Origin: a virus
Strand: one strand, 5' to 3'
IMG/VR virus record: IMGVR_UViG_3300008952_000066
Coordinates: 1 to 53,538 of that record
Length of the DNA: 53,538 bases
The notes beneath the pieces are model-generated. The model was not told the DNA's origin, made no database searches, and was given only the letters and a program-made list of their open reading frames with translations. Position numbers and translations under genes: made by a program. Numbering within the stretch: position 1 is the stretch's first letter; each line of letters begins with the position of its first letter. Shown here in pieces: positions 11,240-35,290 of this stretch.

Positions 11240-11497
11240 ATGGATGGATTTTGGGATAGAGAATTTACTCCTGCTCCTTTCATGGAAGATGCAGTTTGCA
11301 AAAATGCAGATCCTACTATTTTCTTCGTGAACAAGGGAGATACAGGAATTGAAGCTAAAAAACTTTGCGAAAAATGTCCTGTAAAACAAGCTTGTTTGGA
11401 TTTCGCTATTGAAACCCACGAACGGTTTGGGATTTGGGGTGGAATGAACTTCAGAGAAAGAAACGCCGAACTGAGAAGAAGAAAAAAGGTTGTTTGA
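11240..11497 (+). CDS. WhiB family iron-sulfur transcription factor, copy 1
   Basis: The start is ATG 11240, with GGAGGAA upstream, giving 85 residues. It has the four Cys of WhiB proteins: one in 'AVCKN' and then C-EK-C and C after five residues ('LCEKCPVKQACLDF'), followed by the G[IV]WGG turn ('FGIWGGM') and a basic tail ('RERNAELRRRKK'). WhiB proteins bind a 4Fe-4S cluster and regulate transcription together with the main sigma factor in Actinobacteria. Phage WhiBs can block host WhiB function. A second WhiB gene follows directly. Confidence 0.92.
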   Translation: MDGFWDREFTPAPFMEDAVCKNADPTIFFVNKGDTGIEAKKLCEKCPVKQACLDFAIETHERFGIWGGMNFRERNAELRRRKKVV

Positions 11498-11724
11498 TGA
11501 ACGACTGGCTAAAACATGCGGCTTGCAAAGACATGGCTTCAAATATTTTCTTTTCCACTAGAGGAGAATCTACTGAACCTGCAAAACTTATCTGCGAAAA
11601 TTGTCCTGTGAAAGAACCTTGTTTGGATTATGCGCTTGCTAATAATGAAACAATAGGTGTATGGGGTGGAATGTCTCGCAGGCAAAGAAGAAATGAAGCT
11701 CGGAGAAGAAAGCAGGCAGTGTGA
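11497..11724 (+). CDS. WhiB family iron-sulfur transcription factor, copy 2
   Basis: The 75-residue protein begins MNDWLKHAACKDM and has the WhiB set: Cys in 'AACKD', then 'ICENCPVKEPCLDY' and 'IGVWGGMSRRQRRNEARRRK'. It starts within TGATG, overlapping the stop of copy 1, so the two are translationally coupled. The two copies are clearly related but not identical, indicating an old duplication or separate acquisition with different targets. Confidence 0.92.
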   Translation: MNDWLKHAACKDMASNIFFSTRGESTEPAKLICENCPVKEPCLDYALANNETIGVWGGMSRRQRRNEARRRKQAV

Positions 11725-13667: not shown

Positions 13668-13910
13668 ATGGAAGATGCAGTTTTAACAAAATTAAAAGAT
13701 TCTGAAGAATTAACTAAAGAAATGAGAAAATTACAGAATCAAATAGTTGAGTGCAATAATAAACGGCGAGAATTGTGGCATCAAGCTTCTACAAGTGGAG
13801 TATCTTATACCAAAATCGCTGAACAGAGTGGAGTTGTTAAACAAACTGTTTACAACGAATTACGCAAAAGGAAAAATTTGCCTCATGTTGTCGGTAAGAT
13901 TAATGAATGA
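13668..13910 (+). CDS. Small helix-turn-helix protein
   Basis: The 80-residue protein has a coiled-coil N-terminus ('EELTKEMRKLQNQIVECNNKRRELWHQAS') followed by a helix-turn-helix ('VSYTKIAEQSGVVKQTVYNELRKRK', residues about 45-70). It is likely to bind DNA as a small regulator. AGGAGGG precedes the start. It ends inside the start of the epimerase gene (ATGA). Confidence 0.65.
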   Translation: MEDAVLTKLKDSEELTKEMRKLQNQIVECNNKRRELWHQASTSGVSYTKIAEQSGVVKQTVYNELRKRKNLPHVVGKINE

Positions 13911-14902
13911 AAGTTCTTATTGCAGGTGGGGCAGGTTTTATAGGTTCTCATCTGACAGAACGCCTTTTAAGCAGAGGCGATGAAGTTACCGTAGTCGATT
14001 CTTTAATTACAGGCAGGGAATCTAATTTAGATTTCGTTAAAGAACATCCAAAATTTGCGTTTCACAAAGTTGACATCAATCACCCTCAAGCTGTTCAATG
14101 GCTTAATTTCAGTCCTTATCAGAAAACAGGCGGATTTGATGCTGTGTTGAATTTAGCGAGTCCTGCATCACCTGATGATTTTAAAACAATCCCTATTCAT
14201 ATTTTGGAAACTGGGAGTGTGGGAAATATGAGGCTTTTAAAATTAGCAAAAAAATCTAATGCTAAATTTCTTTTAGCTTCCACTAGCGAAGTTTATGGCG
14301 ATCCTGAAATTCACCCTCAAAAAGAAACGTATAACGGTTCTGTTAATCCTGTCGGTAGAAGAAGCTGTTATGACGAAGCTAAAAGATTTGCCGAAGCCAC
14401 AACTATGTCATTCCATAATGTTTATGAGACTGATACTCGAATAGCAAGAATCTTTAATACTTACGGAGAGCACATAAATCCGCATGATGGCAGAGTTATA
14501 AATACTTTCATTAAGCAAGCACTTACAAATAAACCTTTGCCTATTTACGGAAAAGGAACTCAAACAAGGTCTTTTTGTCACGTTTGGGATCTTGTAGAAG
14601 GTTTGGTGAAACTTTTGGATTTAGATAATCCTTCAGTTCAGCACCAACCGTTTAATCTTGGTAATCCTACAGAACTTACAGTTTTTTCTTTAGCTGAAGC
14701 GATTATAGAAATGACTAATTCAGATAGCGAAATAGAGTTTCTTCCTATGCCTTTGGAAAGAGAAGGCGATCCACAATTAAGGTGTCCTGATATTACTTTG
14801 GCTAAATTACATCTTAAATGGGAACCTGAAATTAGTTTCCATGAAGGCTTAAGAAGAACCATCAATTATTTTATTGAGAAAGAACGAATTACAGCCATAT
14901 AA
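13907..14902 (+). CDS. NAD-dependent UDP-sugar decarboxylase/epimerase (UXS-like)
   Basis: The 331-residue extended short-chain dehydrogenase has the NAD-binding 'GGAGFIGSH' (residues 7-15), the 'LASPASP' segment (about residue 85), 'ASTSEVYGDPEIHPQ' and the catalytic Tyr-Lys pair in 'RRSCYDEAKRFAEA'. 'GRVINTFIKQAL' and 'TRSFCHVWDLVEG' complete the fold. The STSEVYGDP-HPQ-E and CYDE-KR motifs match UDP-glucuronate decarboxylase (UDP-xylose synthase) better than plain GalE, though substrate cannot be proved from sequence. It may supply a nucleotide sugar for the glycosyltransferases at 19991 and 21850. Confidence 0.8.
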   Translation: MKVLIAGGAGFIGSHLTERLLSRGDEVTVVDSLITGRESNLDFVKEHPKFAFHKVDINHPQAVQWLNFSPYQKTGGFDAVLNLASPASPDDFKTIPIHILETGSVGNMRLLKLAKKSNAKFLLASTSEVYGDPEIHPQKETYNGSVNPVGRRSCYDEAKRFAEATTMSFHNVYETDTRIARIFNTYGEHINPHDGRVINTFIKQALTNKPLPIYGKGTQTRSFCHVWDLVEGLVKLLDLDNPSVQHQPFNLGNPTELTVFSLAEAIIEMTNSDSEIEFLPMPLEREGDPQLRCPDITLAKLHLKWEPEISFHEGLRRTINYFIEKERITAI

Positions 14903-14955
14903 TCCATTAATGAAAGTCATTATTTCCTGTAGAATCGCTCTAACCGACAACAAAT
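14901..14955 (+). repeat. 55-bp repeat with TAGA-N5-TCTA dyad, copy 1
   Basis: This stretch matches 19935-19989 at about 46 of 55 positions. It contains the dyad TAGAATCGCTCTA (14930-14942), and TAGAAT also looks like a -10 box. It begins within the epimerase stop codon region and lies upstream of the DUF932-like gene. Direct TTTTGTCAC repeats (14955-14962 and 14972-14979, roughly) follow. It could be a promoter-operator. Confidence 0.7.
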
Positions 14956-15028
14956 TTTGTCACCTGAAACAGTTTTGTCACACCTGTTGAATATTGTGGT
15001 TCTATAAATTAAATGCTGAGGAGGCAAA

Positions 15029-16189
15029 ATGGAAACACAAATCGAGGCTAGGAATTTGGATTTACCAAACTTAGTCCAAATGTTAAAAGAACAATCCGAT
15101 GTACGTTATGACGTTGTTGTTCCATCATCAGGAATGAAAATGACAAACGGAAATCTGATTATTAAAGGTGGTGGAGTACGGATTGATGAACAAGGCGTTC
15201 ACACCGAAGATGCCACATTAGTTCCTACACAAATTTTTGATGAAGGAATTGCTAACCGTTTAAATATACCTGCAAGGTATGTCCGCACTATGCGAGGACA
15301 AATCACTTCGGATATAGAAAATGATAACGGAACGCTTTATGACAAAAACATCAATTATTGGTTGGAAAATGATTCGTCAAGATTACATCTCGTCAGGGGT
15401 TTCAGAACCGATGACGTTGATGATTTCGGAATTGCAAGAGCATTTCTGTCTGACCGATACAGAACCATAGATAACTATGATGTGTTAATGGCAACTCTTG
15501 AAGGAGTGAAATCTGCTGGAGTTGAAGTAAATATTGACGGTGCTGATGTTTCGGATCACAGAATGGCGTTGAGGCTAACTTGCCCCGAAGTGCAACAATA
15601 CAGCGAAGAAATTTTGCGTGGTTACACCTCGCCTTTTACTGGAGAATCGGGAACGGATAATCCCACTATTTTTGCTGGTTTGGTTATTAAAAATTCTGAA
15701 ACAGGCGGTGGAGCATTTTCTATAGTGCCACGACTTGTAGTCAAAGTTTGTAATAACGGTTTGCAGATGACGAGAGATGCTATGAGGGCAGTTCATCTTG
15801 GAAGCAAATTAGAAGAAGGGGTTATTACTTGGTCAGAAGAAACTCAACAACAAGAATTGAGTTTGATAACTACAAAAACTAGAGATGCTGTTGCAACTTT
15901 CCTAGATGTTGAGTACATGAAAACCAAGATAGATGAATTGCATCAACTGGCAGGAATTGAAGTTAAACAACCTCCGAGAACTATGAAAATGATTTCTAAA
16001 AAATCAGGTTGGTCAGAAACTGAAGAACAAGATATTTTGAAACACTTTTATCAGGGTGGGGATAACTCCGCTTTGGGGGTAGCACAAGCAATTACATCTT
16101 TTGCACAGACTGTGAAAAAGACAGACAGACAAGATGAATTAGAAAGTTCTGCACTACAATCCGCAGAATTGGTTAGTATAAATATTTGA
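15029..16189 (+). CDS. DUF932-like phage/plasmid protein
   Basis: The 386-residue protein resembles the DUF932 (phage/plasmid-like TIGR03299) group: 'ANRLNIPARYVRTM', 'LVRGFRTDDVDDFGIARAFLSDRYRTIDNYDVL', 'GLVIKNSETGGGAFSIVPRLVVKVCNNGLQMTRDAMRAVHLG' and a helical C-terminus. Such proteins are widespread in phages and plasmids, and their function is not established. SD GAGGAGG precedes the ATG. It lies downstream of the first 55-bp repeat, so it may be a separate transcription unit, closed by the terminator at 16438. Confidence 0.75.
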   Translation: METQIEARNLDLPNLVQMLKEQSDVRYDVVVPSSGMKMTNGNLIIKGGGVRIDEQGVHTEDATLVPTQIFDEGIANRLNIPARYVRTMRGQITSDIENDNGTLYDKNINYWLENDSSRLHLVRGFRTDDVDDFGIARAFLSDRYRTIDNYDVLMATLEGVKSAGVEVNIDGADVSDHRMALRLTCPEVQQYSEEILRGYTSPFTGESGTDNPTIFAGLVIKNSETGGGAFSIVPRLVVKVCNNGLQMTRDAMRAVHLGSKLEEGVITWSEETQQQELSLITTKTRDAVATFLDVEYMKTKIDELHQLAGIEVKQPPRTMKMISKKSGWSETEEQDILKHFYQGGDNSALGVAQAITSFAQTVKKTDRQDELESSALQSAELVSINI

Positions 16190-16220
16190 AAACTAAATAA
16201 GTAAATAGGTTTGAAGGTTT

Positions 16221-16307
16221 GTGGATGAACCGAACAATGATCCTAAATTAAATTTGGGGAGTTGGGTAGTTGAAGCAAATTGGCACCGGAAAAAACTGCG
16301 CCAATAG
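16221..16307 (+). CDS. Possible small ORF or gene remnant
   Basis: A GTG-started ORF encodes 28 residues (MDEPNNDPKLNLGSW...). Another frame, 16280 to about 16363, continues with protein-like sequence (APEKTAPIGTYKEISLPSG) and no start of its own. The two could be one small gene broken by a frameshift, or chance. AAGG lies 5 bases before the GTG. Confidence 0.3.
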   Translation: MDEPNNDPKLNLGSWVVEANWHRKKLRQ

Positions 16308-16380
16308 GAACTTACAAAGAAATAAGTTTACCTTCGGGATTCTATATAGATAATTTGTAATACCTGCCTTCAAAACTTTT

Positions 16381-16436
16381 ACAAACACAGGGAGCCTCCT
16401 CGGTTCATTTTTCCCATCAGAAAAACCTGTGTTTGT
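16381..16436. other. Long-armed inverted repeat
   Basis: ACAAACACAGG (16381-16391) is the exact reverse complement of CCTGTGTTTGT (16426-16436), with 34 bases between. No T-run follows. It may form a hairpin near the terminator, or be a binding site for a dimeric protein. Confidence 0.6.
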
Positions 16437-16437
16437 C

Positions 16438-16477
16438 GGGGGCAAGGTTTTAGCAGACTAAACCTTGCCCCCCTTTT
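16438..16477 (+). terminator. Rho-independent terminator between convergent genes
   Basis: GGGGGCAAGGTTT (16438-16450) pairs with AAACCTTGCCCCC (16460-16472), a perfect 13-bp stem with a 9-base loop, then CTTTTAATTTT. It ends the plus-strand unit of 15029 and may also serve the minus-strand WhiB gene, whose stop is at 16476. Confidence 0.9.
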
Positions 16478-16703
16478 AATTTTCCTCAAGCTTTTTATAA
16501 GCTCTACGTTTCGATTCTGTTAAGCCTCCCCAAATGCCGTGTGCAATATTTTCTTCTATGGCGTATTCGAGGCATTTCTGTTTAATTGGGCAATGGTTAC
16601 AAATAAAAATTGCTAAATCGAATTTTCCACCTTGTTCGGGAAACCACCACTTTGTAGGAAAGCCTTTGCAGACAGCATCATCTTGCCAAGCGAAAAGTCC
16701 CAT
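16476..16703 (-). CDS. WhiB family iron-sulfur transcription factor, copy 3
   Basis: The 75-residue protein begins MGLFAWQDDAVCKGF and has the WhiB pattern 'ICNHCPIKQKCLEY', with the first Cys in 'AVCKG' and the turn 'HGIWGGL' followed by a basic tail. It is alone on the minus strand, convergent to the DUF932-like gene and divergent from the promoter at 16883. The separate control suggests a different time or role from the pair at 11240. SD AGGATGA precedes the start. Confidence 0.92.
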   Translation of the reverse strand: MGLFAWQDDAVCKGFPTKWWFPEQGGKFDLAIFICNHCPIKQKCLEYAIEENIAHGIWGGLTESKRRAYKKLEEN

Positions 16704-16840
16704 TCATCCTGCAAGCTTCATTTTGCTTCTAATTTTTCTTCTGTCGTGCATTGTTGAAAAATCTACAAGCATTTACAGCCCTTTTGAGCGATGTAGAAGA
16801 TTTTTATTTAATGCTATTCATAAAGTGTTGAGAACTCGCA

Positions 16841-16921
16841 TAGAACTGTATATAAGAAATTTCAAAAAAAACCAGCTAAATGTATACATGGGGTTATATG
16901 TTTGTTATAGTGGAACTGATG
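16841..16921 (+). promoter_or_regulatory. Repeated phage promoter with leader, copy 2
   Basis: TATACA (16883-16888) and TATAGT (16906-16911) are 17 bases apart. The leader starts GATGGGAAAAATAAAAAA and ends in a CGAAAGGA ribosome site. ATG of the leader is at 16919, eight bases after the -10 box. A half-site TAGAACTGT (16841-16849), also seen near 37732 and 45807, lies upstream. Together with copy 1, this is the best-preserved version of the element. Confidence 0.8.
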
Positions 16922-16957
16922 GGAAAAATAAAAAATACAAACCGAAAGGAAAAACCA

Positions 16958-17071
16958 TTGGATGCACATACTGAACACTTATTGAAAATGGAGCGAAAGG
17001 AAAACTTCATAAGGGAAATGCTTAAAGACGAAGATATGAAAAAGTATTTTCTCAATAGGGAGGAACGATAA
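16958..17071 (+). CDS. Small charged protein behind promoter copy 2
   Basis: TTG 16958 has GAAAGGA upstream and gives 37 residues; the same frame extends up to ATG 16919, adding leader residues MGKIKNTNRKEKP. The protein is Lys/Glu/Arg-rich (KMERKENFIREMLKDEDMKKYF) and helical. It is the first gene of an operon of small unknown genes up to 17617. Which start is used depends on whether the mRNA is leaderless. Confidence 0.55.
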   Translation: MDAHTEHLLKMERKENFIREMLKDEDMKKYFLNREER

Positions 17072-17072
17072 A

Positions 17073-17318
17073 TTGGAAACACAAACAACACGTATTTATT
17101 GGAATAAAACCGAAGCCATTGGCTTAGAAGAAGATTCGATTTTGATTTTGACACGAAATGAAGTCAATAACAAATGCGAAGCCGAAGAATTATTCTACGA
17201 CTTGCTTAATAACATCAAGGTAACTGACTCAAAGAATCTTGTGGAAGTTTTGAACTTCACAAAATTTCACATTGACAAATGGATAGACGAAAACCAACTC
17301 AGAGAGGAGGTGAAGTAA
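17073..17318 (+). CDS. Small unknown protein, 81 residues
   Basis: It starts with TTG (17073), with GGGAGG 9-10 bases upstream. The sequence 'METQTTRIYWNKTEAIGLEEDSILILTRNEVNNKCEAEELFYDLLNNI' is compatible with a small alpha/beta fold. Nothing assigns a function. It is in the operon driven by promoter copy 2. Confidence 0.6.
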   Translation: METQTTRIYWNKTEAIGLEEDSILILTRNEVNNKCEAEELFYDLLNNIKVTDSKNLVEVLNFTKFHIDKWIDENQLREEVK

Positions 17319-17320
17319 CC

Positions 17321-17617
17321 ATGAACAAACTTTCTAACGAAGCAAGAATCACACTTGCAGAAAACTTTGCGAAAACAAATCAGCAAACATTTGATTTGAA
17401 GCTTGCAACAGATTTGAAAGCTGGAGATGTTATTGCTAAATGGATTGATCAACTTTCAAATATTGATCTAGACGGAATGGAAGTTATTTCTGTAGAAACT
17501 TACGAAATGATTTCTGTGCCTGATGCTGTGAAGCTCACTTTCAAAGATCCGACAACAGGAAATAAAGAAATAAATATTATTAATGGAGATTTCTTATTTG
17601 CAGTAAAAATCGTATAA
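17321..17617 (+). CDS. Small unknown protein, 98 residues
   Basis: ATG 17321 was chosen over an upstream in-frame ATG (17279) because GAGGAGGTGA lies just before it and the upstream one overlaps the previous gene. The protein reads MNKLSNEARITLAENFAKTN, followed by a helical and then a beta-rich part ending 'GDFLFAVKIV'. No family known. It is the last gene before promoter copy 3. Confidence 0.65.
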   Translation: MNKLSNEARITLAENFAKTNQQTFDLKLATDLKAGDVIAKWIDQLSNIDLDGMEVISVETYEMISVPDAVKLTFKDPTTGNKEINIINGDFLFAVKIV

Positions 17618-17624
17618 CCCCAAT

Positions 17625-17664
17625 TTGACAGTTGGGCAAATATGAGTTAGAATGGTACTTGATG
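17625..17664 (+). promoter_or_regulatory. Repeated phage promoter with leader, copy 3 (consensus type)
   Basis: TTGACA (17625-17630) and TAGAAT (17648-17653), exactly 17 bases apart, form a near-perfect sigma70 promoter. The upstream and spacer sequences differ from copies 1, 2, 4 and 5, but the leader after it (TGGTACTTGATGGGAAAAATAAAAAA) is the same. The leader is therefore conserved independently of the promoter core. ATG of GATGGG is at 17662, nine bases after the -10 box. Confidence 0.85.
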
Positions 17665-17679
17665 GGAAAAATAAAAAAT

Positions 17680-18186
17680 ATGAATCAAACAATCGAACAA
17701 CTTATAGAAAATACTCCTCGCGAGGATTTTCAATTTGTTCTACCTTTCAAATTAACTAAAAAACAAATGACAGGTTTGTTTCATCAAGTCGAAATGAAAG
17801 ATGACCGTCAAACTATCCAAGTTAACGAAGATATTTTACTTGAAACAAGAGGACACGAATTAACTGAAGGCAGATCACCTTCATGGATTGCTTTTGAAGA
17901 ATTTGTGGATGAACTTTACTGGAACATTGATAGATGGGCTGATCTTCCAAATGGCACGGATGAACAACAATGTGGAAAAGCTGATTGTGAATGTTATTCA
18001 AATAATGGTGAAGGTTTATACGACATATATTACCGAGAACAAAAAGAAGCAGGTGTTAATATCCGAACAGGACACAGCTACACTCCTCGTGAAACCAAAC
18101 ACACAATCGGTTATCAAACCAAACTCCTCATAAATTCTTGGAAGGGCTTACTCACTAAGGTCTACAAATTAGGGGAAGTAATATGA
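17680..18186 (+). CDS. Unknown protein, 168 residues
   Basis: ATG 17680 begins MNQTIEQLIENTPRED; an in-frame ATG at 17662 in the conserved leader (MGKIKN) may be the real start if the mRNA is leaderless, because no clear ribosome site precedes 17680. The protein has 'FQFVLPFKLTKKQMTGLFHQVEMKDDRQTIQ' and a Cys pair 'CGKADCEC'. It has no known family. The next gene overlaps its stop (ATGA). Confidence 0.7.
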   Translation: MNQTIEQLIENTPREDFQFVLPFKLTKKQMTGLFHQVEMKDDRQTIQVNEDILLETRGHELTEGRSPSWIAFEEFVDELYWNIDRWADLPNGTDEQQCGKADCECYSNNGEGLYDIYYREQKEAGVNIRTGHSYTPRETKHTIGYQTKLLINSWKGLLTKVYKLGEVI

Positions 18187-18512
18187 ATCTTCCTTTCAAC
18201 CACAATCACGCTTATGACGTTGCGGAAGTTATAAACAGACAAACTGTAGAAGCTTTAATCAGAACTTACGGTGAACATATAGCAATTTATATGCCACGCA
18301 AACAGATTCTTCATGTGAAGTTTGACCGTTTAGAAAATGATTTAATGTTTTACTTACGAATAGATGATTTAAATAAAACTAAATATGAAGCTGAATACCC
18401 AACTGATTTTATTGACATAACAAACAGTAATATTATTCTCGCTTTTCCTCATGCTGATAATGAAAATGGTAGACTGGTCAGATCCATCAGCGGAGGATGG
18501 GGGCGTTATTAA
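18183..18512 (+). CDS. Unknown protein, 109 residues
   Basis: The protein begins MNLPFNHNHAYDVAEVINRQTVEALIRTYGEH and contains 'DDLMFYLRIDDLNKTK'-like and 'ISGGWGRY' segments. It overlaps the previous stop by ATGA. No motif was assigned. It belongs to the operon behind promoter copy 3. Confidence 0.65.
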   Translation: MNLPFNHNHAYDVAEVINRQTVEALIRTYGEHIAIYMPRKQILHVKFDRLENDLMFYLRIDDLNKTKYEAEYPTDFIDITNSNIILAFPHADNENGRLVRSISGGWGRY

Positions 18513-18514
18513 TC

Positions 18515-18610
18515 ATGTCGGTTAGATACAGTTTACAGAATAAATGTTCTTTCGTTAATGGTTTATGTGACCGAAGTTCTATGAACATGAGGACTGTAAA
18601 TGATTTCTAA
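18515..18610 (+). CDS. Possible small ORF, 31 residues
   Basis: ATG 18515 opens a 31-residue frame (MSVRYSLQNKCSFVNGLCDRSS) that ends in the next gene. It has two Cys but no close ribosome site. It would otherwise leave an 88-base gap between tightly packed genes. Evidence is weak. Confidence 0.3.
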   Translation: MSVRYSLQNKCSFVNGLCDRSSMNMRTVNDF

Positions 18611-18992
18611 AGAAGCTCAAAAAGGTGCAGAGTTTTGTGTCGATTTGATTATCGAAGATTGGGAAAGACTATATAAAGAAAATCCTGACTCTACTTTCAA
18701 TTTGGATGCTGAATCTTGGAAAGAAGCAAAAAGTAATTTCACCAGTTTAGGGCATGTTAAAGCAATCAGGAAAAGTGATTACACAGATTGGGATGTTGTA
18801 ATTGAATGTGCTATGTCACAAACACACAATTTGACTGAAGAAATAAAATATTGGGAAGATGATTATGACGAAACTTGGCTAATAAAACAGTTAAAAGTTA
18901 TTAAACAATTAAAAGCTTTATTAGAAGAATCAGGTTGGGATAGCATTTTCACAAGCGAAGTTAAACAGTTTTTGAAAGAATACAAAACATGA
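18600..18992 (+). CDS. Unknown protein, 130 residues
   Basis: The protein begins MISKEAQKGAEFCVDLIIEDWERLYKENPD and is acidic and helical, ending 'VIKQLKALLEESGWDSIFTSEVKQFLKEYKT'. GAGGA lies 8 bases upstream of the ATG. No family was recognised. The small CxxC gene at 18989 follows with an ATGA overlap. Confidence 0.65.
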   Translation: MISKEAQKGAEFCVDLIIEDWERLYKENPDSTFNLDAESWKEAKSNFTSLGHVKAIRKSDYTDWDVVIECAMSQTHNLTEEIKYWEDDYDETWLIKQLKVIKQLKALLEESGWDSIFTSEVKQFLKEYKT

Positions 18993-19153
18993 AGTGCCAA
19001 AATTGCACAGCATTGATTGTTTATGCAGGAGAAGGAATTTGGATTGACGGATACCAAAGTTCCGAATGTCCAAGCTTTGAACTTTTTCATAAGCCAGTCA
19101 CCCCCTGCGAGTCAGAAGAAGCTATGCTGATGGGAGAAATTAACAAGCCATAA
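18989..19153 (+). CDS. Small putative zinc protein, 54 residues
   Basis: The ORF reads MKCQNCTALIVYAGEGIWIDG and has C-x-x-C at residues 3-6 with further Cys at 27 and 40, compatible with a zinc ribbon. It starts at ATGA with the previous gene and ends 16 bases before the ParB-like gene. Such proteins occur often in actinophages; the role is unknown. Confidence 0.6.
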   Translation: MKCQNCTALIVYAGEGIWIDGYQSSECPSFELFHKPVTPCESEEAMLMGEINKP

Positions 19154-19168
19154 TACGGAGGCATAGCT

Positions 19169-19936
19169 GTGGGAATATTTGACAATTTAAATCAGTCACC
19201 CAAATCCGAATCTGAAGATCCATCACACGATTACCAAAGATCCTCTGAACAATGTTCAGTAATGGAATTGAAACCTCATCCACGAAACTACAGGCAACAT
19301 TCTGAAGATCAAATAGAACACATCAAACAATCAATTAAAGATCATGGGTTTTATAGAAATGTTGTTGTCGCAAACGATAACACCATCCTTGCAGGACACG
19401 GAGTAGTTAAAGCCGCCAAAGAACTAAATATGACTACTATCCCTGTTGTTAGATTAAAAGTTTCCCCCGAAGATGCACAAGCCTTAAAGCTTTTAGCGGC
19501 TGACAATTACATACAGCACTTATCTTTTGACGATGACAGGATGCTTACTGATCTTTTAAAAGAAGTATCAAGTGAAGAAGGTTTACTTGGCACAGGATTT
19601 GATGACGTTTCTTTAGCTGCTTATGCGATGATTACTCGTTCAGCGGATGAAATTGAAGATTTCGATGCGGCTTTAGAATGGGCAGAAGCTGGTATGCCCG
19701 AATTTGAAAACCCGAAAGAAATGGATGAATTTAGTAAAGAAGCTTATGCAAATATAAAGTTTCCCACAGCAGAACATAGAGAAGAATGGGTAGAAAAAGC
19801 TACAAAAGCTGATCCTGAACTTGTAGAAACAATTCGCAGACAAAACAACTGGTCTTTAAGATGGCCTGCAAGCGAAAGCGTAGACCAGCGAGAAGATCTA
19901 CAATCAGTTGAGTTTACTGTTGGCATTGATGAATAA
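19169..19936 (+). CDS. ParB-like (ParB/Srx fold) protein
   Basis: It starts with GTG (19169) with GGAGG upstream. The 255-residue protein has an N-terminal ParB-type domain (residues about 28-135): 'LKPHPRNYRQHSEDQIEHIKQSIKDHGFYRNVVVANDNTILAGHGVVKAAKELNMTTIPVVRL' with the G-H-G-x-x-x-A loop, then a helical 'DAQALKLLAADN' segment. Stand-alone phage ParB-like proteins are repeatedly found in DNA-modification gene sets. No DNA methyltransferase domain is fused. Two glycosyltransferases and an epimerase follow. It probably processes nucleotides or DNA here, not plasmid partition. Confidence 0.8.
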   Translation: MGIFDNLNQSPKSESEDPSHDYQRSSEQCSVMELKPHPRNYRQHSEDQIEHIKQSIKDHGFYRNVVVANDNTILAGHGVVKAAKELNMTTIPVVRLKVSPEDAQALKLLAADNYIQHLSFDDDRMLTDLLKEVSSEEGLLGTGFDDVSLAAYAMITRSADEIEDFDAALEWAEAGMPEFENPKEMDEFSKEAYANIKFPTAEHREEWVEKATKADPELVETIRRQNNWSLRWPASESVDQREDLQSVEFTVGIDE

Positions 19937-19989
19937 TCCATGCACTAAAGTCCTTATTTCCTTTAGAATCGCCCTAACCGTGAACAAAT
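19935..19989 (+). repeat. 55-bp repeat with TAGA-N5-TCTA-like dyad, copy 2
   Basis: About 46 of 55 bases match 14901-14955. The dyad is TAGAATCGCCCTA (19964-19976), one mismatch from perfect. It starts inside the last codons of the ParB-like gene and ends just before the glycosyltransferase ATG (19991). The placement is parallel to copy 1: after a gene, before another. A promoter-operator is likely. Confidence 0.7.
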
Positions 19990-19990
19990 A

Positions 19991-20878
19991 ATGCCTAAAC
20001 TACCCAAATATCCTATTTACATTCCAACTAAAGGCAGATGGAATACTCCATTCACTATAAAAGCCTTCCAAAAAGACGAAGTTCCTATATATGTAGTTGT
20101 TCAACCGCAAGAACTGGAAGAATACGAAAAGCATTGTTCATCTCCTACCACAACCTTCCTTACCCTGCCTTTCAGTAATCCTGTAGACGAAGAAGGAAAC
20201 CCATGCGGTCTTTTAGCAACTCGTAATTGGATAATGGATCACTCCATAGAATTAGGCGCAACTCGCCATTGGCAATTTGACGACAATCAAGATAAATTCA
20301 TGCGGTATTACAAAGGGAGAAGCATCCCAATACAATCCCATCTTGCTTTAAGAATCGTTGAAGATTTCACCGACAGGTACAAAAACATAGCAATATCAGG
20401 TTTCGATTACGAAATGTTTGTCGTAAGAGGAAAACAAACACAACCATTCACACGCAACTGTAGAGTTTATTCAGCTTCACTCATAAACAACGAAGCAAAC
20501 ATACGTTGGAGACTCCGATACAACGATGACGTAGACATCTGCCTCCAAGCCTTATCAACAGGATACTGGTCAACCATTCTGTTCAGAGCAGTTCACATCC
20601 GCAAAAGAAAAACCATGACAGTAAAAGGCGGCAACACAGACGACCTTTACCAAGATGACGGAAGAAACATAATGGCACGCTCATTAGAAAGAGTATGGCC
20701 GGGAGTTGTCAAAACCAAAAGAAGATTCAACAGACCACAACACGTTGTCTCACACTCATGGGGACATTTCGACAACCCATTAATACCAATAGAAAACCCC
20801 GAACCCACACCCGATTACCCAATGCAGATAGAAGGAAACCCAAAATCCAAATCATTGCGTAACGCACTTGACCTCTGA
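19991..20878 (+). CDS. TET-associated-type glycosyltransferase (TAGT-like), copy 1
   Basis: The 295-residue protein has 'PIYIPTKGRWNTPFTIKAF' (residues 7-25), 'YVVVQPQELEEYEKH', 'GLLATRNWIMDHSIELGATRHWQFDDNQDKF' (about 75-105) and 'DDVDICLQALSTGYWS'. These are the IPxKGR, VVxPxExxxY, RNxI and W-x-x-DD elements of the GT-A-fold glycosyltransferases found next to TET/JBP base oxidases in phages, which glycosylate modified bases in DNA. The DDN/DD pairs are likely metal and UDP-sugar ligands. No TET gene is seen here, so the acceptor is open. Confidence 0.75.
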   Translation: MPKLPKYPIYIPTKGRWNTPFTIKAFQKDEVPIYVVVQPQELEEYEKHCSSPTTTFLTLPFSNPVDEEGNPCGLLATRNWIMDHSIELGATRHWQFDDNQDKFMRYYKGRSIPIQSHLALRIVEDFTDRYKNIAISGFDYEMFVVRGKQTQPFTRNCRVYSASLINNEANIRWRLRYNDDVDICLQALSTGYWSTILFRAVHIRKRKTMTVKGGNTDDLYQDDGRNIMARSLERVWPGVVKTKRRFNRPQHVVSHSWGHFDNPLIPIENPEPTPDYPMQIEGNPKSKSLRNALDL

Positions 20879-20894
20879 ACACTAAGGTCTGAAC

Positions 20895-21845
20895 ATGGAA
20901 AATAGAAAAAACAAAACGATTGTGACAGGTGGAGCAGGTTTTATAGGCTCACATCTCGCTGAAAAACTGGTTAAACGAGGAGATGAAGTCCTTGTAATAG
21001 ATAATTTCTCTACTGGTTCATTAAAGAATCTTGTTCAAATAGAAAAAGAAATAGAAATTATCAATATGGATATCGCTAATCCTTTAATAAATGATTTGGT
21101 GAGAAGATTTAAACCTGATGTTGTTTTTCATTTAGCCGCTCAAATGGATGTACGCCACTCTGTGGGAAATCCACTCGATGATGCTTATACAAATATCATA
21201 GGTTTGCTTAATGTTTTAGAAGGAGCTTGTAGCGAAACATTAAAGAAAATAGTTATCGCTTCTTCAGGGGGAACAATTTATGGGGAATTGGATAAAACAC
21301 TTATTCCAGTTAAAGAAACGGCTGTTCGTAAGCCTTTATCGCCTTATGGCGTAGCAAAAGTAGCAGGCGATCTTTATTTAGACGCTTATCGCTTTCTTCA
21401 TGGATTATCAGGAACGAGTCTCGCTTTGGGGAATGTATATGGTCCTCGACAAGATCCTTTAGGGGAAGCAGGAGTAATTTCTATTTTTGCAGGAACTTTA
21501 TTGGAAGGTAAACAGGCAGTTATTTATGGAGATGGGAAACAAACAAGAGATTTTATTTACATTGATGATGTGGTGGAAGCTTTTTTAAGTGCCGAAGAAT
21601 ATGAAGGTGAAGAACTTTTCAATATTGGAAGCGGTGAAGAAACTTCAATAAACGAATTACATGAGATGTTGGCTTCAATAATAGATCCTACTGCTGAACC
21701 GAAATGGGAAAATAACCGCAAAGGGGAATTACAATACTCGGCTTTAGATTCTTCATTGGCACAATCGAAACTTGACTGGAAACCTGTTATTGACTTACAG
21801 GAAGGTTTAAACCGTACTGTTAATTGGTTTAAAACAAAGGAATAA
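20895..21845 (+). CDS. UDP-sugar 4-epimerase-like (GalE family)
   Basis: The 316-residue extended SDR enzyme has 'TGGAGFIGSHLAEKL' (residues 9-23), 'VIDNFSTGSLKNL', 'VFHLAAQMDVRHSV', 'IASSGGTIYGE' and the catalytic Y-x-x-x-K in 'LSPYGVAKVAG', then 'GNVYGPRQDPLGEAGVISIFAGTLLEG' and 'TRDFIYIDDVVEAFL'. This is the GalE/UDP-glucose 4-epimerase type. It sits between two glycosyltransferase genes, so it probably supplies their donor sugar. The protein is different in subfamily from the UXS-like enzyme at 13907, so two UDP-sugars may be made. Confidence 0.85.
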   Translation: MENRKNKTIVTGGAGFIGSHLAEKLVKRGDEVLVIDNFSTGSLKNLVQIEKEIEIINMDIANPLINDLVRRFKPDVVFHLAAQMDVRHSVGNPLDDAYTNIIGLLNVLEGACSETLKKIVIASSGGTIYGELDKTLIPVKETAVRKPLSPYGVAKVAGDLYLDAYRFLHGLSGTSLALGNVYGPRQDPLGEAGVISIFAGTLLEGKQAVIYGDGKQTRDFIYIDDVVEAFLSAEEYEGEELFNIGSGEETSINELHEMLASIIDPTAEPKWENNRKGELQYSALDSSLAQSKLDWKPVIDLQEGLNRTVNWFKTKE

Positions 21846-21849
21846 TGCT

Positions 21850-22626
21850 ATGCAGAAATTTCCTATATATATCCCCAGCAAAGGAAGGGCAGAACGTAGC
21901 AGAACTGTAGAAGAATTAGAAAAAGGTAACTGCACAGATTATTTCATAGTTGTTGAACCGCAAGATTATGAAGCGTATTCGGAAGCCCATCATGAAAAAA
22001 ACCTTCTTTGCTTAGATAAAAATGATGAAGGAATTTATTACGTGCGTAACTTCATTCTTCAACATGCGTTAAATAACGGTTATGAATACGTTTGGCAGGT
22101 TGATGACGATTTGCAATTCGCAAGACACTCAAAAAACAGTAAACCTATCCTTAAACCTATTCACCCAACAGAAGCTTTTATAGAAATAGAACAGGTTGTA
22201 GAAAAATTTTCCAATATTGGAGTGGCAGGTGTAAGAGACAGCACTTACGCTTGGAGCCAACCTGAACGAATCAGTATAAACAAACAAGCATCGGGCTGTT
22301 GGTTAATAAAAACAGATACAGGATGCAAATTCCGAAAAGACATCATCGAAGATACTGATTTCAATATGCAAATACTTGTAGCAGGATACTGCACGCTCAA
22401 TTTCAATCGTTTAGTTTACGTTAATCCACCTACAGGAACTGTTGAGGGAGGAAACAGTAACGTCAATTTTCTTTTACAGCAAAAGAATTTGGTAAAAGCG
22501 TGGCATGGATGTTTCACTTTGAAATACAACAGAATAGGAACTGTTCATACAGAAAACCTCAGTTCACGAATAGCTCCAAGTCGGATATGGAGCAAATTTC
22601 CTCAACGCCCTAAACGAAAGGTTTAA
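21850..22626 (+). CDS. TET-associated-type glycosyltransferase (TAGT-like), copy 2
   Basis: The 258-residue protein has 'PIYIPSKGRAERSRTVEEL' (residues 5-23), 'YFIVVEPQDYEAYSE', 'GIYYVRNFILQHALNNGYEYVWQVDDDLQF' (about 57-86), 'ASGCWLIKTDTG' and 'EDTDFNMQILVAGYCTLNF'. The element order equals that of copy 1, but the sequences are divergent outside the motifs. A phage with two such enzymes could add two sugars in series, or glycosylate two acceptors. Start ATG 21850 follows AAAGGAAT. The terminase small subunit follows directly. Confidence 0.75.
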   Translation: MQKFPIYIPSKGRAERSRTVEELEKGNCTDYFIVVEPQDYEAYSEAHHEKNLLCLDKNDEGIYYVRNFILQHALNNGYEYVWQVDDDLQFARHSKNSKPILKPIHPTEAFIEIEQVVEKFSNIGVAGVRDSTYAWSQPERISINKQASGCWLIKTDTGCKFRKDIIEDTDFNMQILVAGYCTLNFNRLVYVNPPTGTVEGGNSNVNFLLQQKNLVKAWHGCFTLKYNRIGTVHTENLSSRIAPSRIWSKFPQRPKRKV

Positions 22627-22628
22627 TT

Positions 22629-23168
22629 ATGGCTAGAGGACAATCACCAGCATTATCTCCTGAAACGGCTGAAAGATATAGACAAGTCGTACAAATGAGA
22701 GCCGCAGGTTTAACATTTGACCGTATCGCTCAAGAATTAGGTTACGCAAGCCGTTCAGGTGCTAAAGAAGCTTATGATTCTGCCTTGCAATCTTGGGGAA
22801 GGGAAGCCGTTGACAATTTAAGAGTTCTAGAAGGCGAACGTGTTGATGAATTGTGGCGCAGAACTTTCGCTCGTTTATTAGAAGCTGACCGTAATCAAGC
22901 AGAAATAAACGAATTTCTGAACATTGTTATGACTGCCGTGAGAATTTCTAAAAGAAGATCAGAATTATTTGGTTTGGATGCTCCTCGCCAACTTGAAGTT
23001 ACTGGTGCAGGAGGAGGAGCTATCAGGACTGACATAGGAGACTTACTTATTTCTCGTTTAGAAGAATTAAGAGAAAAACAAGGTCCTTTAGCAGAAAATC
23101 TTGATCAAAAGCCCCTGTTGGATGCAATACCCTCTGAGAGCGCCACAGAGGAGTCCTATGATGAGTAA
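22629..23168 (+). CDS. terS: Terminase small subunit
   Basis: The 179-residue protein has a helix-turn-helix type N-terminus ('ERYRQVVQMRAAGLTFDRIAQELGYASRSGAKEAYDSALQSW') and a helical middle ('NLRVLEGERVDELWRRTFARLLEADRNQAEINEFLNIVMTAVRISKRRSELFGLDAPRQLEVTG'). 'DRNQAEINEFLNIVMTAVRISKRRSELFGLDAPRQ' is typical of small terminase subunits of this phage type. It recognises the packaging site and recruits the large subunit, whose gene is immediately downstream. Confidence 0.8.
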   Translation: MARGQSPALSPETAERYRQVVQMRAAGLTFDRIAQELGYASRSGAKEAYDSALQSWGREAVDNLRVLEGERVDELWRRTFARLLEADRNQAEINEFLNIVMTAVRISKRRSELFGLDAPRQLEVTGAGGGAIRTDIGDLLISRLEELREKQGPLAENLDQKPLLDAIPSESATEESYDE

Positions 23169-23226
23169 ACCATATAGTAATGTGTTCACTCAAAAAGAAC
23201 TTAAAAACGCTTTAGAAGGGCTGTAA
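23161..23226 (+). CDS. Possible micro-ORF between terminase genes
   Basis: ATG 23161 opens a 21-residue frame (MSKPYSNVFTQKELKNALEGL) with GAGGAG eight bases upstream; it ends directly before the terminase large subunit ATG. It may act only to couple translation, since the frame overlaps terS by 8 bases. Evidence is weak. Confidence 0.35.
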   Translation: MSKPYSNVFTQKELKNALEGL

Positions 23227-24555
23227 ATGGCAGAATTATCAGTAGTTGAAGAAATTTCTCGCCGAACAGACCCAAATCTGCTGTTTGAAGGGTTAGATCC
23301 TGAACAAATAGAAGCTGTGATGCACGACTGGAGACTTTGGCGCAGACCGAAACAAATAACCCCTGAAGGAAACTGGAGAGTTTGGCTTATTCTTGCAGGT
23401 CGTGGTTTCGGTAAAACACGCACAGGATCAGAATGGGTAAGGGAGCAAGTTGAAGCTGGTAACGCAAAACACATAGCACTTGTCGGTGCAACAGCCGCAG
23501 ATGTCAGAGACACTATGATAGAAGGCGAATCAGGTATTCTGTCTATTTTCCCTGATGGGAAACGACCACGCTATGAACCTTCCAAAAGGCGAATAACTTT
23601 CCATAACGGTGCAATGGCTACTTCTTATACAGCGGATGAACCTGACCGCCTTCGTGGTCCCAACCATGATTTGGCTTGGTGTGATGAGTTAGCCGCTTGG
23701 AGGTATCCACAAGCGTGGGACATGCTTATTTTCGGTTTGCGTATCGGGAAACACCCTCAAGCATTAGTCACCACCACTCCTCGACCAACAAAAATAATCA
23801 GGGATTTGGTTAAAAGAAAAGGTAATGACGTTGTTGTCACACATGGCAGTACTTTTGAAAATAAAACTAATCTTGCGGCTTCATTCTTTCAGGAAATAAT
23901 TGAACGATACGAAGGCACAAGATTAGGCAGACAAGAATTACATGCAGAAATTCTCGATGATGTGGATGGCGCTTTATGGAATCGAGACATGCTTGACGAT
24001 GCAAGAGTAACTGAAATGCCTGACTTGAAAAGAATCGTAGTTGCTATTGATCCTGCTGTTTCTTCCCATGAAGGTTCTGCTGAAACAGGAATAGTAGCCG
24101 CTGGAGTAGATGAAGCAGGGCATGGATACATCCTTGAAGATGTTTCAAAAAGAGGCACACCATTGGAATGGGCTAACGAAGCTGTTGCGGCTTATAACAG
24201 ATTGAAAGCAGATCGAATAGTCGCAGAAGCAAATCAAGGTGGGGACATGATACGCCACACCTTGAACACGGTGGATAAAAATATTCCTTTACGTCTCGTT
24301 CATGCAAGTAGAGGAAAAAGAGTTCGTGCAGAACCTATAGCGGCTTTATATGAACAGCATAAAGTTCATCACGTTGGTTCTTTCCCCGATTTGGAAGATC
24401 AACTTTGTTCTTGGGTTCCTGATGTATCTGCTTCACCTGATAGGTTGGATGCTCTAGTATGGGCATTAACAGAATTAATGATTGATGGAGCAAGACATCA
24501 TCCTGCTGTTGCACCTATTAATATTGAGCAAGTAAATCCATGGATACCGCAATGA
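23227..24555 (+). CDS. terL: Terminase large subunit
   Basis: The 442-residue ATPase-nuclease powers DNA packaging. Walker A is 'AGRGFGKTRTG' (residues 57-67, Lys63), the Walker B region 'HDLAWCDELAAW' (Asp153-Glu154), and the coupling motif 'ALVTTTPRP' follows. The RNase H-like nuclease domain starts at 'RIVVAIDPAVSS' (about residue 270) with further acidic residues in 'VAEANQGGDMIRHTL' and 'PDRLDALVWALTELM'. The length is normal. The C-terminus overlaps the start of a 50-residue gene (ATGA). Confidence 0.95.
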   Translation: MAELSVVEEISRRTDPNLLFEGLDPEQIEAVMHDWRLWRRPKQITPEGNWRVWLILAGRGFGKTRTGSEWVREQVEAGNAKHIALVGATAADVRDTMIEGESGILSIFPDGKRPRYEPSKRRITFHNGAMATSYTADEPDRLRGPNHDLAWCDELAAWRYPQAWDMLIFGLRIGKHPQALVTTTPRPTKIIRDLVKRKGNDVVVTHGSTFENKTNLAASFFQEIIERYEGTRLGRQELHAEILDDVDGALWNRDMLDDARVTEMPDLKRIVVAIDPAVSSHEGSAETGIVAAGVDEAGHGYILEDVSKRGTPLEWANEAVAAYNRLKADRIVAEANQGGDMIRHTLNTVDKNIPLRLVHASRGKRVRAEPIAALYEQHKVHHVGSFPDLEDQLCSWVPDVSASPDRLDALVWALTELMIDGARHHPAVAPINIEQVNPWIPQ

Positions 24556-26063: not shown

Positions 26064-29000
26064 ATGGCTGGCGAAATAAAGGTTGGTCTGTCTAAAAAGA
26101 TTCACCACATCCCACTTTCTTGGGATGTTAATAAAGCTAAATCTAATCATCAGCCTAAATTCCGACCTGTTGGTGACGCAATACTTCGAGGCAGAGAAAA
26201 ATCTGTAGGTAAAATAATGGAACAGATGTTTCTAGCTATGCCACCTGTTGAACTTTGGATAGATGGCAAATTAACTCCCGAACAGTATTTGGAAAGAGCT
26301 GAAAAAATATCAGAACCTTACATGCAACAAATTGCGGCTTTATTGCAAGTTTCTTTTAACGAAGGTGCGATTATGCAACAGGACAGAATACGTGCTGATG
26401 CTAATGAGCAATTAAAACGGTTACGAAGCCCTTTGCGTTTAACAGATGAAAAAGGGAAAGTAACGAAAGCAACTGTTGGGGGAATTGATGTAGGTGAAGA
26501 TCCAAAAATCATTTGGTCACCTGTGGGCATAGAAGCCTTCGACGAAGTAAGTTCTGCTTCAGTTCAATACGCACAATTCCGTTCAGCGACTCTTGTTACC
26601 GCAATGCTGGAAGAACAACAGCGAGTTATTCAAGAACTTATAGGAGAATCTTTCACAGCGTCACAGACTTTCTCTACAGGAAGAACAGTTACAGGTTTAA
26701 CAACAGGACAAACTTCAAGAGCTTTATTTGAAGTGTTAGAAGAAATGAACCCGAATACTCCTTTAGGCAGGCAACTCGCTCAAATGCGAGGAATAAACTC
26801 GGCAGGTTTAACTCACCCATGGGAAAAAGCAGTTTTTAGACGTTCAGAAAAAATAGCTCAACAATTAGCTGATAAGGGAATTGGAGGAGCAAGAGCTTAC
26901 AACAAGATAAGAGACGATTCCAATAAATACGCTAAGAAACTTCGCCGTTCAAGAGCAAGGGTGATTTCTCGTACTGAGATTAAACGAGCGCAAGTAGCAG
27001 GACAACTTGACTCTATGCAGGAAGCTGTAAATTCAGGTTTAGCTGATCCTAGAACAGCAGGTAAAAAATGGATTACAGGTTCTACTGACGTTTGCCCTAT
27101 ATGCACAAGTCTTGGTTTCGGTAGAGCTATTCATATACGGCAATCTTTCCCGAATGTGGGGGATGGACCTCCTGCTCATCCTAATTGTCGTTGCGATTTG
27201 GATTTCGCTCATCGGATAAAAGATGCACCACAAGCTGTCGGTGCAGGTAACCCTAACTTTCCTGCTGGTAGTCCTGAGAACCCGATTGTTTGGCAATTCA
27301 ATTCAGGTTTCCAATCTTCACCTAATGTGACTACTGCTTTCAGACCGCCTTCGGTTCCTAGAACTCCTAGAAAACCTGTTAAGGCTCCTTCTCCATCTGC
27401 TCAATACAGTGAAATTCCTGATGTTGATGATGAAATAACAGAAAAAATTGTTGAAGTTTATGAAACCACAGAAGGCACACATCAACAAAAAGCTGATGCC
27501 GTATACCAATATCTTGGTTATAAGGGTAAACCAAAAGTTGTTGAATGGGAAGATTTAGGTAAGCATGTAGATGAAAGCCCTGCTGGAGAAATGCGCCGTG
27601 TGGTGCGAGAAACTAAAGATAAAACAAACCCAATAACAGGTGTTGAAGAAACTTTTTCAAAAGAAGAAATAGCAGAACAATTTAGAACAGGACAAGCTTT
27701 CACAGGCGAAGGTTTAAGTGGTACAGGTACTTACACTTATGAAGGAACAGCAGGAGCATTTGATGAATATGCAATGAGCCGAAAAGGGAAGTGGGAAACT
27801 GTCGAAATGACATTAGCGCCTGACGCTAAAATTATGACTTTAACTGATGAAACTGAAAGGGCACTTAAAAAGAAATATAAAGATTTATACCCTGATGGAC
27901 CTACAGATATAGGGTTAATTCTCGCTTCTAAAGGATTTGACGCTATAAGATTAGTGGATTTAGACGATGAATTTGGAAATGTTATGATGATCATTTTAAA
28001 TCGTTCTAAAGTTATTGTCAGTAAGGTGCATGGGGCAGAAATAGGAAAACTTAAACCTTTTAAACGACCTCCTCCTCCAACAGCTAGTGTCCCACCTACA
28101 CCTACTCCTGCCACAGTTGATGAAGTCATAGAAGAAATAGATGCGGTTCCTTTGCAAAGTAAACCCACTCCTACTGAAACAGGTAAAACGTGGGAAGATG
28201 ACGCTTTCCACGAAATAAACGCAACTGTTACTTACACCGCAGGGCGAATGGGTACTGTTATAGAGGAAGCTATAGATGAAGTATCACAAGTTTTAGGTAA
28301 CCCAATTCCATCTAATGCACTTAAAACTCATATTAAAACTGCACCAATTAAAAGAACAAGTAAAACAGGAGACAATGTAAGAGTTTTAGGTGATTTTTCT
28401 CCTAGTCGAAAAATTCAGTTACCTAGACAACCTAAAAGACCAAAAAAAATGGATTTGTCTACATTTGAAACCCGAGGGGGATATGGCACTTCCCAAGCCA
28501 TTGACCATAGACGTTGGGCTAAAGCTAGAGAACTTGATCGTGAACTTGGAGATGATGTAACTACTTTCACGGATGAGCTTTTAGAAGAAATGGCTGAAGA
28601 AGGCGAGTTTCCTTTCGCTAATTGGAAAGAAGCAGGTTACAAATCTGAACAAGATTTCAAAAACGCTGTTGAAGATTTTTACACAAAAGAAGAAAAATAT
28701 TGGAAAGATATTGAAGACATTTTCAATGGTATAGATCCTGCAACTGGTGAAGCGTTTGAAACTTTTGCGACTGGAGAATTAAAAGATCCACGTTATGAAG
28801 CAGGTTATGGGGCTTTGGATGATGTACCTGCTCGTAGAGATATACGAATCGGGGAAGAAAATAGTTACAAAAAAGGAACACCTGAATACAATTCCAGTTT
28901 GAAATCAACCTTCCATCATGAGAACGGTCACAACATTGATTTCATGCACTTAAGTACTAATGCTCCGAGTGGGGATGACATCGCAGCCATTGAACGTTTC

Positions 29001-30945: not shown

Positions 30946-31374
30946 TTGGATGACCAACAGCTAACCGAAGCGTTAGAACATATACAGGAACGTCTGCAAT
31001 TAAGTGTTGATGCAACGATAACTAAAACTCAAGGTGTAAAAGCTAGAGTTGAGAAAACACAAAGCTTAATTGAAACGATTAAAGACAATATTGCTTATAT
31101 AGTTGGTTTACCTGCCACACTTGGCGGTGCTTTCGGGTTTCTGTGGGACTCATCGGGGGATGAAGCGGCATTAACTCATAAAGTAACAATGCTTGAAGAA
31201 GCGGTAGCAGGATTAAAAGCAGAGAATGATCTGCTAGGTGGCGGTACTAAAAACTTCGCCATCGACATGAGCGCAGTTCCTAGCGGTTCCGTAACCGTCA
31301 TAATTGTTGCATCAATAATAGTTGTAAGTGTTGGGTTACTTGCCATGTATCAAAGACGGCGTAAGAAGCGTTGA
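30946..31374 (+). CDS. Coiled-coil membrane protein, 142 residues
   Basis: It starts with TTG, behind GGAGG at 6 bases. Residues 1-45 form a coiled coil ('LTEALEHIQERLQLSVD', 'VKARVEKTQSLIETIKDNI'), residues 46-65 are weakly hydrophobic ('IAYIVGLPATLGGAFGFLW'), a second coil follows (70-90) and a clear transmembrane helix lies at about 112-134 ('SVTVIIVASIIVVSVGLLAMY'), ending in RRRKKR. The stop overlaps the lipoprotein start (TTGA), so the two are co-translated and may act together in the envelope. Confidence 0.7.
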   Translation: MDDQQLTEALEHIQERLQLSVDATITKTQGVKARVEKTQSLIETIKDNIAYIVGLPATLGGAFGFLWDSSGDEAALTHKVTMLEEAVAGLKAENDLLGGGTKNFAIDMSAVPSGSVTVIIVASIIVVSVGLLAMYQRRRKKR

Positions 31375-35042: not shown

Positions 35043-35050
35043 GGAGGATA

Positions 35051-35290
35051 ATGAAAGTTTGGATTGACCAAGATTTATGTACTGGAGATGGTTTATGCGA
35101 AGAACTATGTGGTGACATATTTTACGGTCACGATGACGGATTGTTTTACGTTAAAGAAGCAGGTACGCCCACTCCTAAAGAACCTACTCACAAGATGAGT
35201 GAAACAGTTAATGTCCCTGACGAATTAGCCGAAGCTGTTATTGAATCTGCCGAAGAATGTCCCGGCGAATGTATTTTTGTGGAACCATAG
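35051..35290 (+). CDS. Single-cluster ferredoxin
   Basis: ATG 35051 follows AAGGAGG; 79 residues. 'VWIDQDLCTGDGLCEELCGDIFYGHDDGLFYV' gives C-x5-C-x3-C, and 'EECPGECIFVEP' supplies the C-P. This is the layout of actinobacterial 3Fe-4S/4Fe-4S ferredoxins that pass electrons to P450s and other redox enzymes. The phage codes no obvious partner, so it may serve a host enzyme or help to load WhiB proteins. It ends antisense over the next gene by 53 bases. Confidence 0.85.
   Translation: MKVWIDQDLCTGDGLCEELCGDIFYGHDDGLFYVKEAGTPTPKEPTHKMSETVNVPDELAEAVIESAEECPGECIFVEP

Follow-up and report, generated by a model that had tools for sequence, protein, structure and literature searches.

The 53,538-base virus record IMGVR_UViG_3300008952_000066, analysed here over its whole length (the window), carries side by side the genes for a ParB-like protein and for a glycosyltransferase of the TAGT family, and it is proposed that the two probably constitute a two-component phage module for the glycosylation of phage DNA, in which the ParB_N–GMPEF protein recruits the transferase. 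GMPEF, in full W-GMPEF, is the name coined in this analysis for the C-terminal domain of the ParB-like protein, and its linkage to TAGT, seen in well over 100 virus sequences, is obligate. Judged from the sequences, this partner domain and a context free of thymidylate synthase (TS) and TET enzymes appear to be new; a literature search returned no paper joining ParB, a glycosyltransferase, phage and DNA glycosylation, the 2013 paper that named TAGT (reportedly that of Iyer et al.) lying outside the search.

The ParB-like protein (255 amino acids; 19169..19936, plus strand) consists of ParB_N (nucleotides 19235-19639) followed by GMPEF (nucleotides 19643-19921), which takes the place of the usual helix-turn-helix (HTH) region of ParB. 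ParB_N (PF02195) scores 26.8 bits against a cut-off of 26.3 (5.6e-6) in Pfam, the PHROG ParB family is matched at 1.8e-31, and our own hidden Markov models (HMMs) detect ParB_N at 1.2e-46 and GMPEF at 9.8e-15. The ParB profile matches Spo0J/Noc structures (best 1.5e-12), and the fold resembles those of Spo0J, Noc and pNOB8 ParB. No ParA turned up in general open reading frame (ORF) scans of the window, in which no test was aimed at a partition role. GMPEF is a domain of about 75 amino acids unrecognised by Pfam, with W-x-GMP-[ED]-[FY] at its start and a W-[YFW]-P motif later.

When IMG/VR was scanned with the TAGT profile, at least 590 relatives came up, and the 80 best of them were retained; the linkage counts, taken from the best 80 per scan, describe this TAGT branch and not the whole family. 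Six-frame searches with HMMs placed GMPEF upstream of, or fused to, TAGT at all 76 testable loci. The ParB-like gene in the IMG/VR loci lies directly upstream of TAGT, mostly with an overlap of a few bases, and the constant element in that position is GMPEF and not ParB_N, which was present at 61 of 70 loci. A search of IMG/VR with GMPEF only, for which a profile from a closer alignment was used (the mixed alignment being too diverse for searching), found TAGT downstream in 72 of 74 new loci, and the remaining two stop at a contig edge; the linkage also held in 32 of 35 genome contigs. Apparent exceptions were wrong-strand greedy ORF calls, which the six-frame HMM search resolved. Across the phage records 31 ParB_N domains lie near TAGT versus one elsewhere. 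In Aeromonas phages 65 and Aeh1, Pectobacterium phage POP12, Vibrio phage Kuja, 1.124.O and 1.076.O, moreover, GMPEF extends TAGT at its N-terminus, and ParB_N, GMPEF and TAGT form a single chain in locus L233. Widespread ParB–TAGT fusions were considered and rejected, since most such proteins lack ParB_N and have GMPEF alone fused; the triple fusion is confirmed only in L233. Linkage and fusions together are what two subunits of a single machine would show. At L039 (3279-4946) ParB_N–GMPEF is preceded by a further domain of about 340 amino acids, glycosyltransferase-like by eye and without a Pfam match.

The transferase following the ParB-like gene, TAGT1 (295 amino acids; 19991..20878, plus strand), is a GT-A glycosyltransferase that matches PF20691 (TAGT; curated cut-off 27.5 bits) with 129.4 bits (E=2.2e-37), and a second, distinct TAGT, TAGT2 (258 amino acids; 21850..22626, plus strand), matches it with 118.7 bits (E=4.4e-34); six-frame searching gave 130.4 and 119.1 bits, respectively. 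A preliminary description of the window, made from its letters alone, had named both proteins as TAGT-like and had noted the ParB-like protein before them; both assignments hold, and the link to TAGT is far stronger than that description could know. A placement of the two enzymes in wall- or capsid-glycosylating families, which by that description would have told against its reading, did not result from the profile searches: above the cut-off Pfam matched both proteins to no family except TAGT, NCBIfam had no match, and PHROG gave weak glycosyltransferase matches for TAGT2 only (1e-4). When aligned with ten GenBank phage TAGTs, TAGT1 and TAGT2 keep all 17 invariant columns, which include K14, R16, R78, N79, W94, D97, D98, E124, R174, D180 and G213-G214; W94, D97 and D98 form the W-x-x-DD metal motif of TAGT1. 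The invariant catalytic residues are identical among TAGTs from TS, TET and orphan contexts. The predicted model of TAGT1 (pLDDT 92) has a GT-A fold, with COLGALT1/LH3-type transferases and heparosan synthase as its nearest folds in Foldseek at a low TM score of about 0.42. A sequence search for a solved structure related to TAGT1 found none, and a plasmid search found no relative.

TAGT2 clusters in a tree with other second-copy TAGTs (the C-terminal TAGT of L020 joins at support 0.98), which branch apart from the TAGT1 group with mixed support. Like the window, L020 (fused), L053, L059, L161, L166, L168, L172, L173 and L177 have a second distinct TAGT beside the first; because it recurs at about nine other loci, the idea of a disaccharide gains some support, and on this pattern it is plausible that two sugars are joined. 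Four TAGT genes in tandem, with several ParB-like genes, are found at L053 (5954-11754).

Two genes for sugar-nucleotide enzymes accompany the pair. The product of the first (13907..14902, plus strand) is UXS, a UDP-glucuronate decarboxylase making UDP-xylose, as it matches human UXS1 structures at E=9e-86 and GalE only at 5e-31; it has a Rossmann motif GGAGFIG at residue 7 (GxxGxxG) and YDEAK at 155 (YxxxK). The second (20895..21845, plus strand) encodes a GalE-type NDP-sugar 4-epimerase (UDP-glucose 4-epimerase structures at 5e-81 and 8e-79; PHROG nucleotide-sugar epimerase). Both identities had been suggested in the preliminary description and are borne out; the UXS gene, which that description had counted with the pathway, lies 5 kb upstream of the cluster and does not adjoin it. 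UXS likely supplies the sugar donor, and the GalE-type enzyme possibly acts as a UDP-xylose/UDP-arabinose or UDP-glucose epimerase. Apart from the window, 23 loci have UXS or GalE-type genes within 4 kb of TAGT, and at 13 of these the match to UXS is strong (E<1e-69); in 25 phage records there are five in 211 kb near TAGT versus two in 906 kb elsewhere (p=0.004). This enrichment makes a pentose donor a recurring theme, which fits the pentose-bearing DNA of RB69-type phages and Thanatos; from the gene content, the sugar in this phage is probably a pentose.

The ParB_N domain itself points to DNA. The ParB-like protein of the window has a match in gp78 of Gordonia phage Jambalaya, which covers the N-terminal part of gp78; the C-terminal part of gp78 is an N6_N4_Mtase, and three ParB–TAGT loci (L019, L065 and L169) also encode a ParB_N-type protein fused to N6_N4_Mtase; another in L065 is fused to a PAPS-reductase domain. 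These fusions suggest that the ParB_N module is exchanged among DNA-modifying enzymes, which favours DNA over protein as the acceptor. ParBc commonly occurs as a fusion with DNA methyltransferases (PMC12783734), and ParB-like proteins are also found alongside Dpd and Dnd DNA modification (PMC12839542, PMC10853773). The arrangement in the window resembles such pairs (ParB_N–N6/N4 methyltransferase, DpdB–DpdA, DndB) in combining a ParB-superfamily protein with a modifying enzyme, and differs in that the partner is a glycosyltransferase and the link is the new GMPEF domain. At L065 (2809-8903) the ParB–TAGT pair, the N6/N4 methyltransferase fusion and the PAPS-reductase fusion bring three modification types next to one another.

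The known DNA glycosylation pathways first put a hydroxyl group on the pyrimidine, either at the nucleotide level (TS-type) or in DNA (TET-type). The window encodes no recognisable enzyme of either kind and no recognisable C5 DNA methyltransferase: Tet_JBP, Thymidylat_synt and the C5 DNA_methylase had no match even at E<=10 in a six-frame search of the complete genome, and Pfam scans of almost all window ORFs revealed no oxygenase, TS or DNA methyltransferase, in agreement with the preliminary description. In the Pfam scans no ORF matched alpha-GT or beta-GT, no search being aimed at either by name. Among 48 records TS was found in none and TET above its cut-off in none, negatives that are firm for the complete genomes only, many of the 48 being fragments. 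As controls, the TET profile finds the TET of Nonlabens phage P12024L, which carries a TET-linked TAGT, and TS was found in six of six large phages with a fused GMPEF–TAGT. The small cultured Vibrio phages 1.124.O and 1.076.O (recorded host, Shewanella) have TAGT and neither TET nor TS, in records labelled partial. A 2OG-Fe(II) oxygenase (2OG-Oxy_3) was tried as the missing hydroxylase and rejected, as it occurs in one of 37 records only (G018). In that complete genome (L107, 2269-4090) the oxygenase is followed by two more proteins that by eye seem akin to it.

All-against-all clustering of 25 phage records of 30-71% GC, five of them complete genomes (the window, G012, G014, G018 and G024), found ParB in 25 and TAGT in 24 and ruled out a conserved third partner gene; the next commonest clusters were antisense artefacts, sugar epimerases, terminase and structural genes. 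The idea of an unknown base-hydroxylase gene is weakened by this lack of a third gene common to phages with the pair; the observations of the preliminary description are confirmed and its interpretation is partly supported. As many phages keep TAGT and its obligate partner without TS or TET, either hydroxylation must proceed by a new route or the acceptor must be a new one. In cyanophage MED4-184 (L152, 2932-5056) ParB, methyltransferase-like and Tet_JBP-like genes stand in a row, with ParB two genes before the Tet_JBP-like one, and in a prophage of Erwinia sp. OLFS4 (L250, 7190-9250) ParB–TAGT comes after genes of MptE-like, GT9-like and methyltransferase-like type, the prophage also carrying Dam and C5 methyltransferases.

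Several known systems share parts of this arrangement. The characterised PF20691 member, the T6 enzyme, glucosylates DNA cytosine that is already glucosylated, and solitary TAGTs, without alpha-GT or beta-GT, were noted in 288 of 753 phage genomes and flagged as potential novel transferases (PMC13216743). The window likewise shows no alpha-GT or beta-GT match, and the text of that paper makes no mention of ParB. The TET/JBP–TAGT–DNA methyltransferase sets, as in P12024L, have the same family, invariant residues, small phage size and clustered genes as the window, in which TET and the DNA methyltransferase are absent and ParB_N–GMPEF is present instead; TAGT1 is 22-24% identical to the P12024L enzyme. 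The T-even pathway to gentiobiosyl-hydroxymethylcytosine (T6 TAGT, alpha-GT and dCMP hydroxymethylase) uses the same Pfam family, and its second-sugar TAGT offers a model for TAGT2; unlike that pathway, the window has no TS-family hydroxymethylase. Pentose on DNA is known as the arabinosyl-hydroxycytosine of RB69 and other Mosigviruses and the pentosyl-cytosine of Shewanella phage Thanatos; in Mosigvirus two sequential transferases have been proposed, and the 5-hydroxy-dCMP synthase is a TS-family enzyme (PMC13390438, PMC12838424). These phages resemble the window in their phage-borne sugar-nucleotide genes and differ in having a TS-family enzyme, which the window lacks, and other sugar-activation enzymes.

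We propose that ParB_N–GMPEF would bind DNA and load TAGT1 onto phage DNA, with the GMPEF domain docking or activating TAGT1. TAGT1 would then transfer the sugar of a UDP donor to an acceptor on DNA. The donor would probably be UDP-xylose, the product of UXS, or else UDP-arabinose or another epimer formed by the GalE-type enzyme, and TAGT2 would probably attach a second sugar. The position of the genes directly before the terminase genes would fit modification around replication or packaging, and the glycosylated DNA may be protected from host nucleases.

The nature of the acceptor is where the alternatives divide. DNA could be glycosylated on a pyrimidine hydroxylated by an enzyme, from phage or host, that has escaped recognition and differs from phage to phage, with TAGT acting in the classical manner, and we regard this as possible, if short of probable. 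It is favoured because the active-site residues match across TS, TET and orphan contexts, suggesting similar acceptors, and it is consistent with the 2OG-Fe(II) oxygenase of G018, a complete relative, and with an orphan ferredoxin in the window; the counts for TS, TET and 2OG-Oxy_3 speak against it. The want of a third shared gene family among the 25 records also disfavours it and favours direct glycosylation of something always present. An unmodified base might be glycosylated without hydroxylation, for instance on an exocyclic amine (compare the ParB_N–N6/N4 methyltransferases), which we think rather unlikely.

Several points weigh against DNA glycosylation by the recruited transferase: a hydroxylated base cannot be explained for the window or for most relatives, and TAGTs of known function use a hydroxyl acceptor; the GMPEF region is of low confidence in the AlphaFold model; the Foldseek neighbours of the predicted TAGT1 model, at a TM score of about 0.42, are protein and polysaccharide glycosyltransferases; and the TAGT gene of 1.076.O sits between the portal and head-morphogenesis genes, a position that would fit a virion protein as acceptor as well. 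The module might accordingly be read as one that glycosylates a virion or host protein (capsid, portal, terminase), with ParB_N–GMPEF picking a protein partner and not DNA. This reading gains from the location in 1.076.O, from the terminase genes adjoining TAGT in the window and many relatives, from the lack of an available base hydroxyl and from the collagen hydroxylysine galactosyltransferases among the GT-A fold relatives. We nevertheless consider it doubtful, given that in the same loci this type of ParB_N also pairs interchangeably with DNA methyltransferases, that sister TAGT branches co-occur with TS- or TET-type base hydroxylation, and that the catalytic residues are unchanged in all three contexts. 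That the phage carries these genes by accident or as a remnant, with a ParB that serves ordinary partition or regulation and transferases that act on surface polysaccharide, is very improbable: surface-glycan glycosyltransferases and epimerases do occur in phages (PMC7824862), but the near-perfect reciprocal GMPEF–TAGT linkage in unrelated phages of 30-71% GC largely refutes such a reading, and the short or overlapping gene junctions, the fusions and the concentration of ParB_N near TAGT also speak against it.

All genes from 19169 to 24555 lie on the plus strand in the order ParB, TAGT1, GalE-like, TAGT2, HTH protein and large terminase. The HTH protein (22629..23168) is probably the small terminase, given a weak HTH_23 match, its place before the large terminase gene and a homologue in the same place in L076; the large terminase (23227..24555) matches Terminase_6N at 1.9e-26 and Terminase_6C at 9e-17. 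Its cluster is present at 35 of 79 loci, and terminase lies downstream of ParB–TAGT in many relatives. Promoter and terminator scans of the cluster region found sites no more numerous than in shuffles, and a close-DNA search with the cluster matched no isolate phage. Because bases 1-119 exactly match bases 53420-53538, the record represents a whole genome, which is 53,419 bp long and was probably assembled as a circle; this repeat and the 127-bp terminal repeats of four relatives look like assembler k-mer overlaps from circular or permuted genomes and not biological repeats. Two WhiB-type transcription factor genes found in ORF scans (11434-11724, plus strand; 16476-16703, minus strand) point to an actinobacterial host.

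Other genes of the window include one for a Mu F-like head protein of 1143 amino acids with a long C-terminal extension (26064-29495, plus strand) and one for a lipoprotein-like protein of 1223 amino acids (31371-35042, plus strand), which is very acidic and rich in tryptophan in its middle and matches nothing in Pfam. Between the latter and a metallophosphoesterase gene lies that of the small 4Fe-4S ferredoxin (34997-35290, plus strand), the sole redox protein seen in the window and a possible electron donor for an unknown oxygenase. The PHROG labels "RNA ligase" and "DNA methyltransferase" of the ORF at 29643 are wrong, the protein being a Peptidase_S78_2.

The ParB_N–GMPEF/TAGT pair defines a new partner domain, suggests a partner for the many solitary TAGTs described in the literature, and offers for expression studies a simple target of two genes; the module can be tested in two cultured Vibrio/Shewanella phages and in the Erwinia prophage. 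It may bear on phage escape from restriction and CRISPR and on DNA-labelling enzymes. Should direct glycosylation prove true, hundreds of uncultured phages would share a DNA glycosylation system that needs no more than these two genes.

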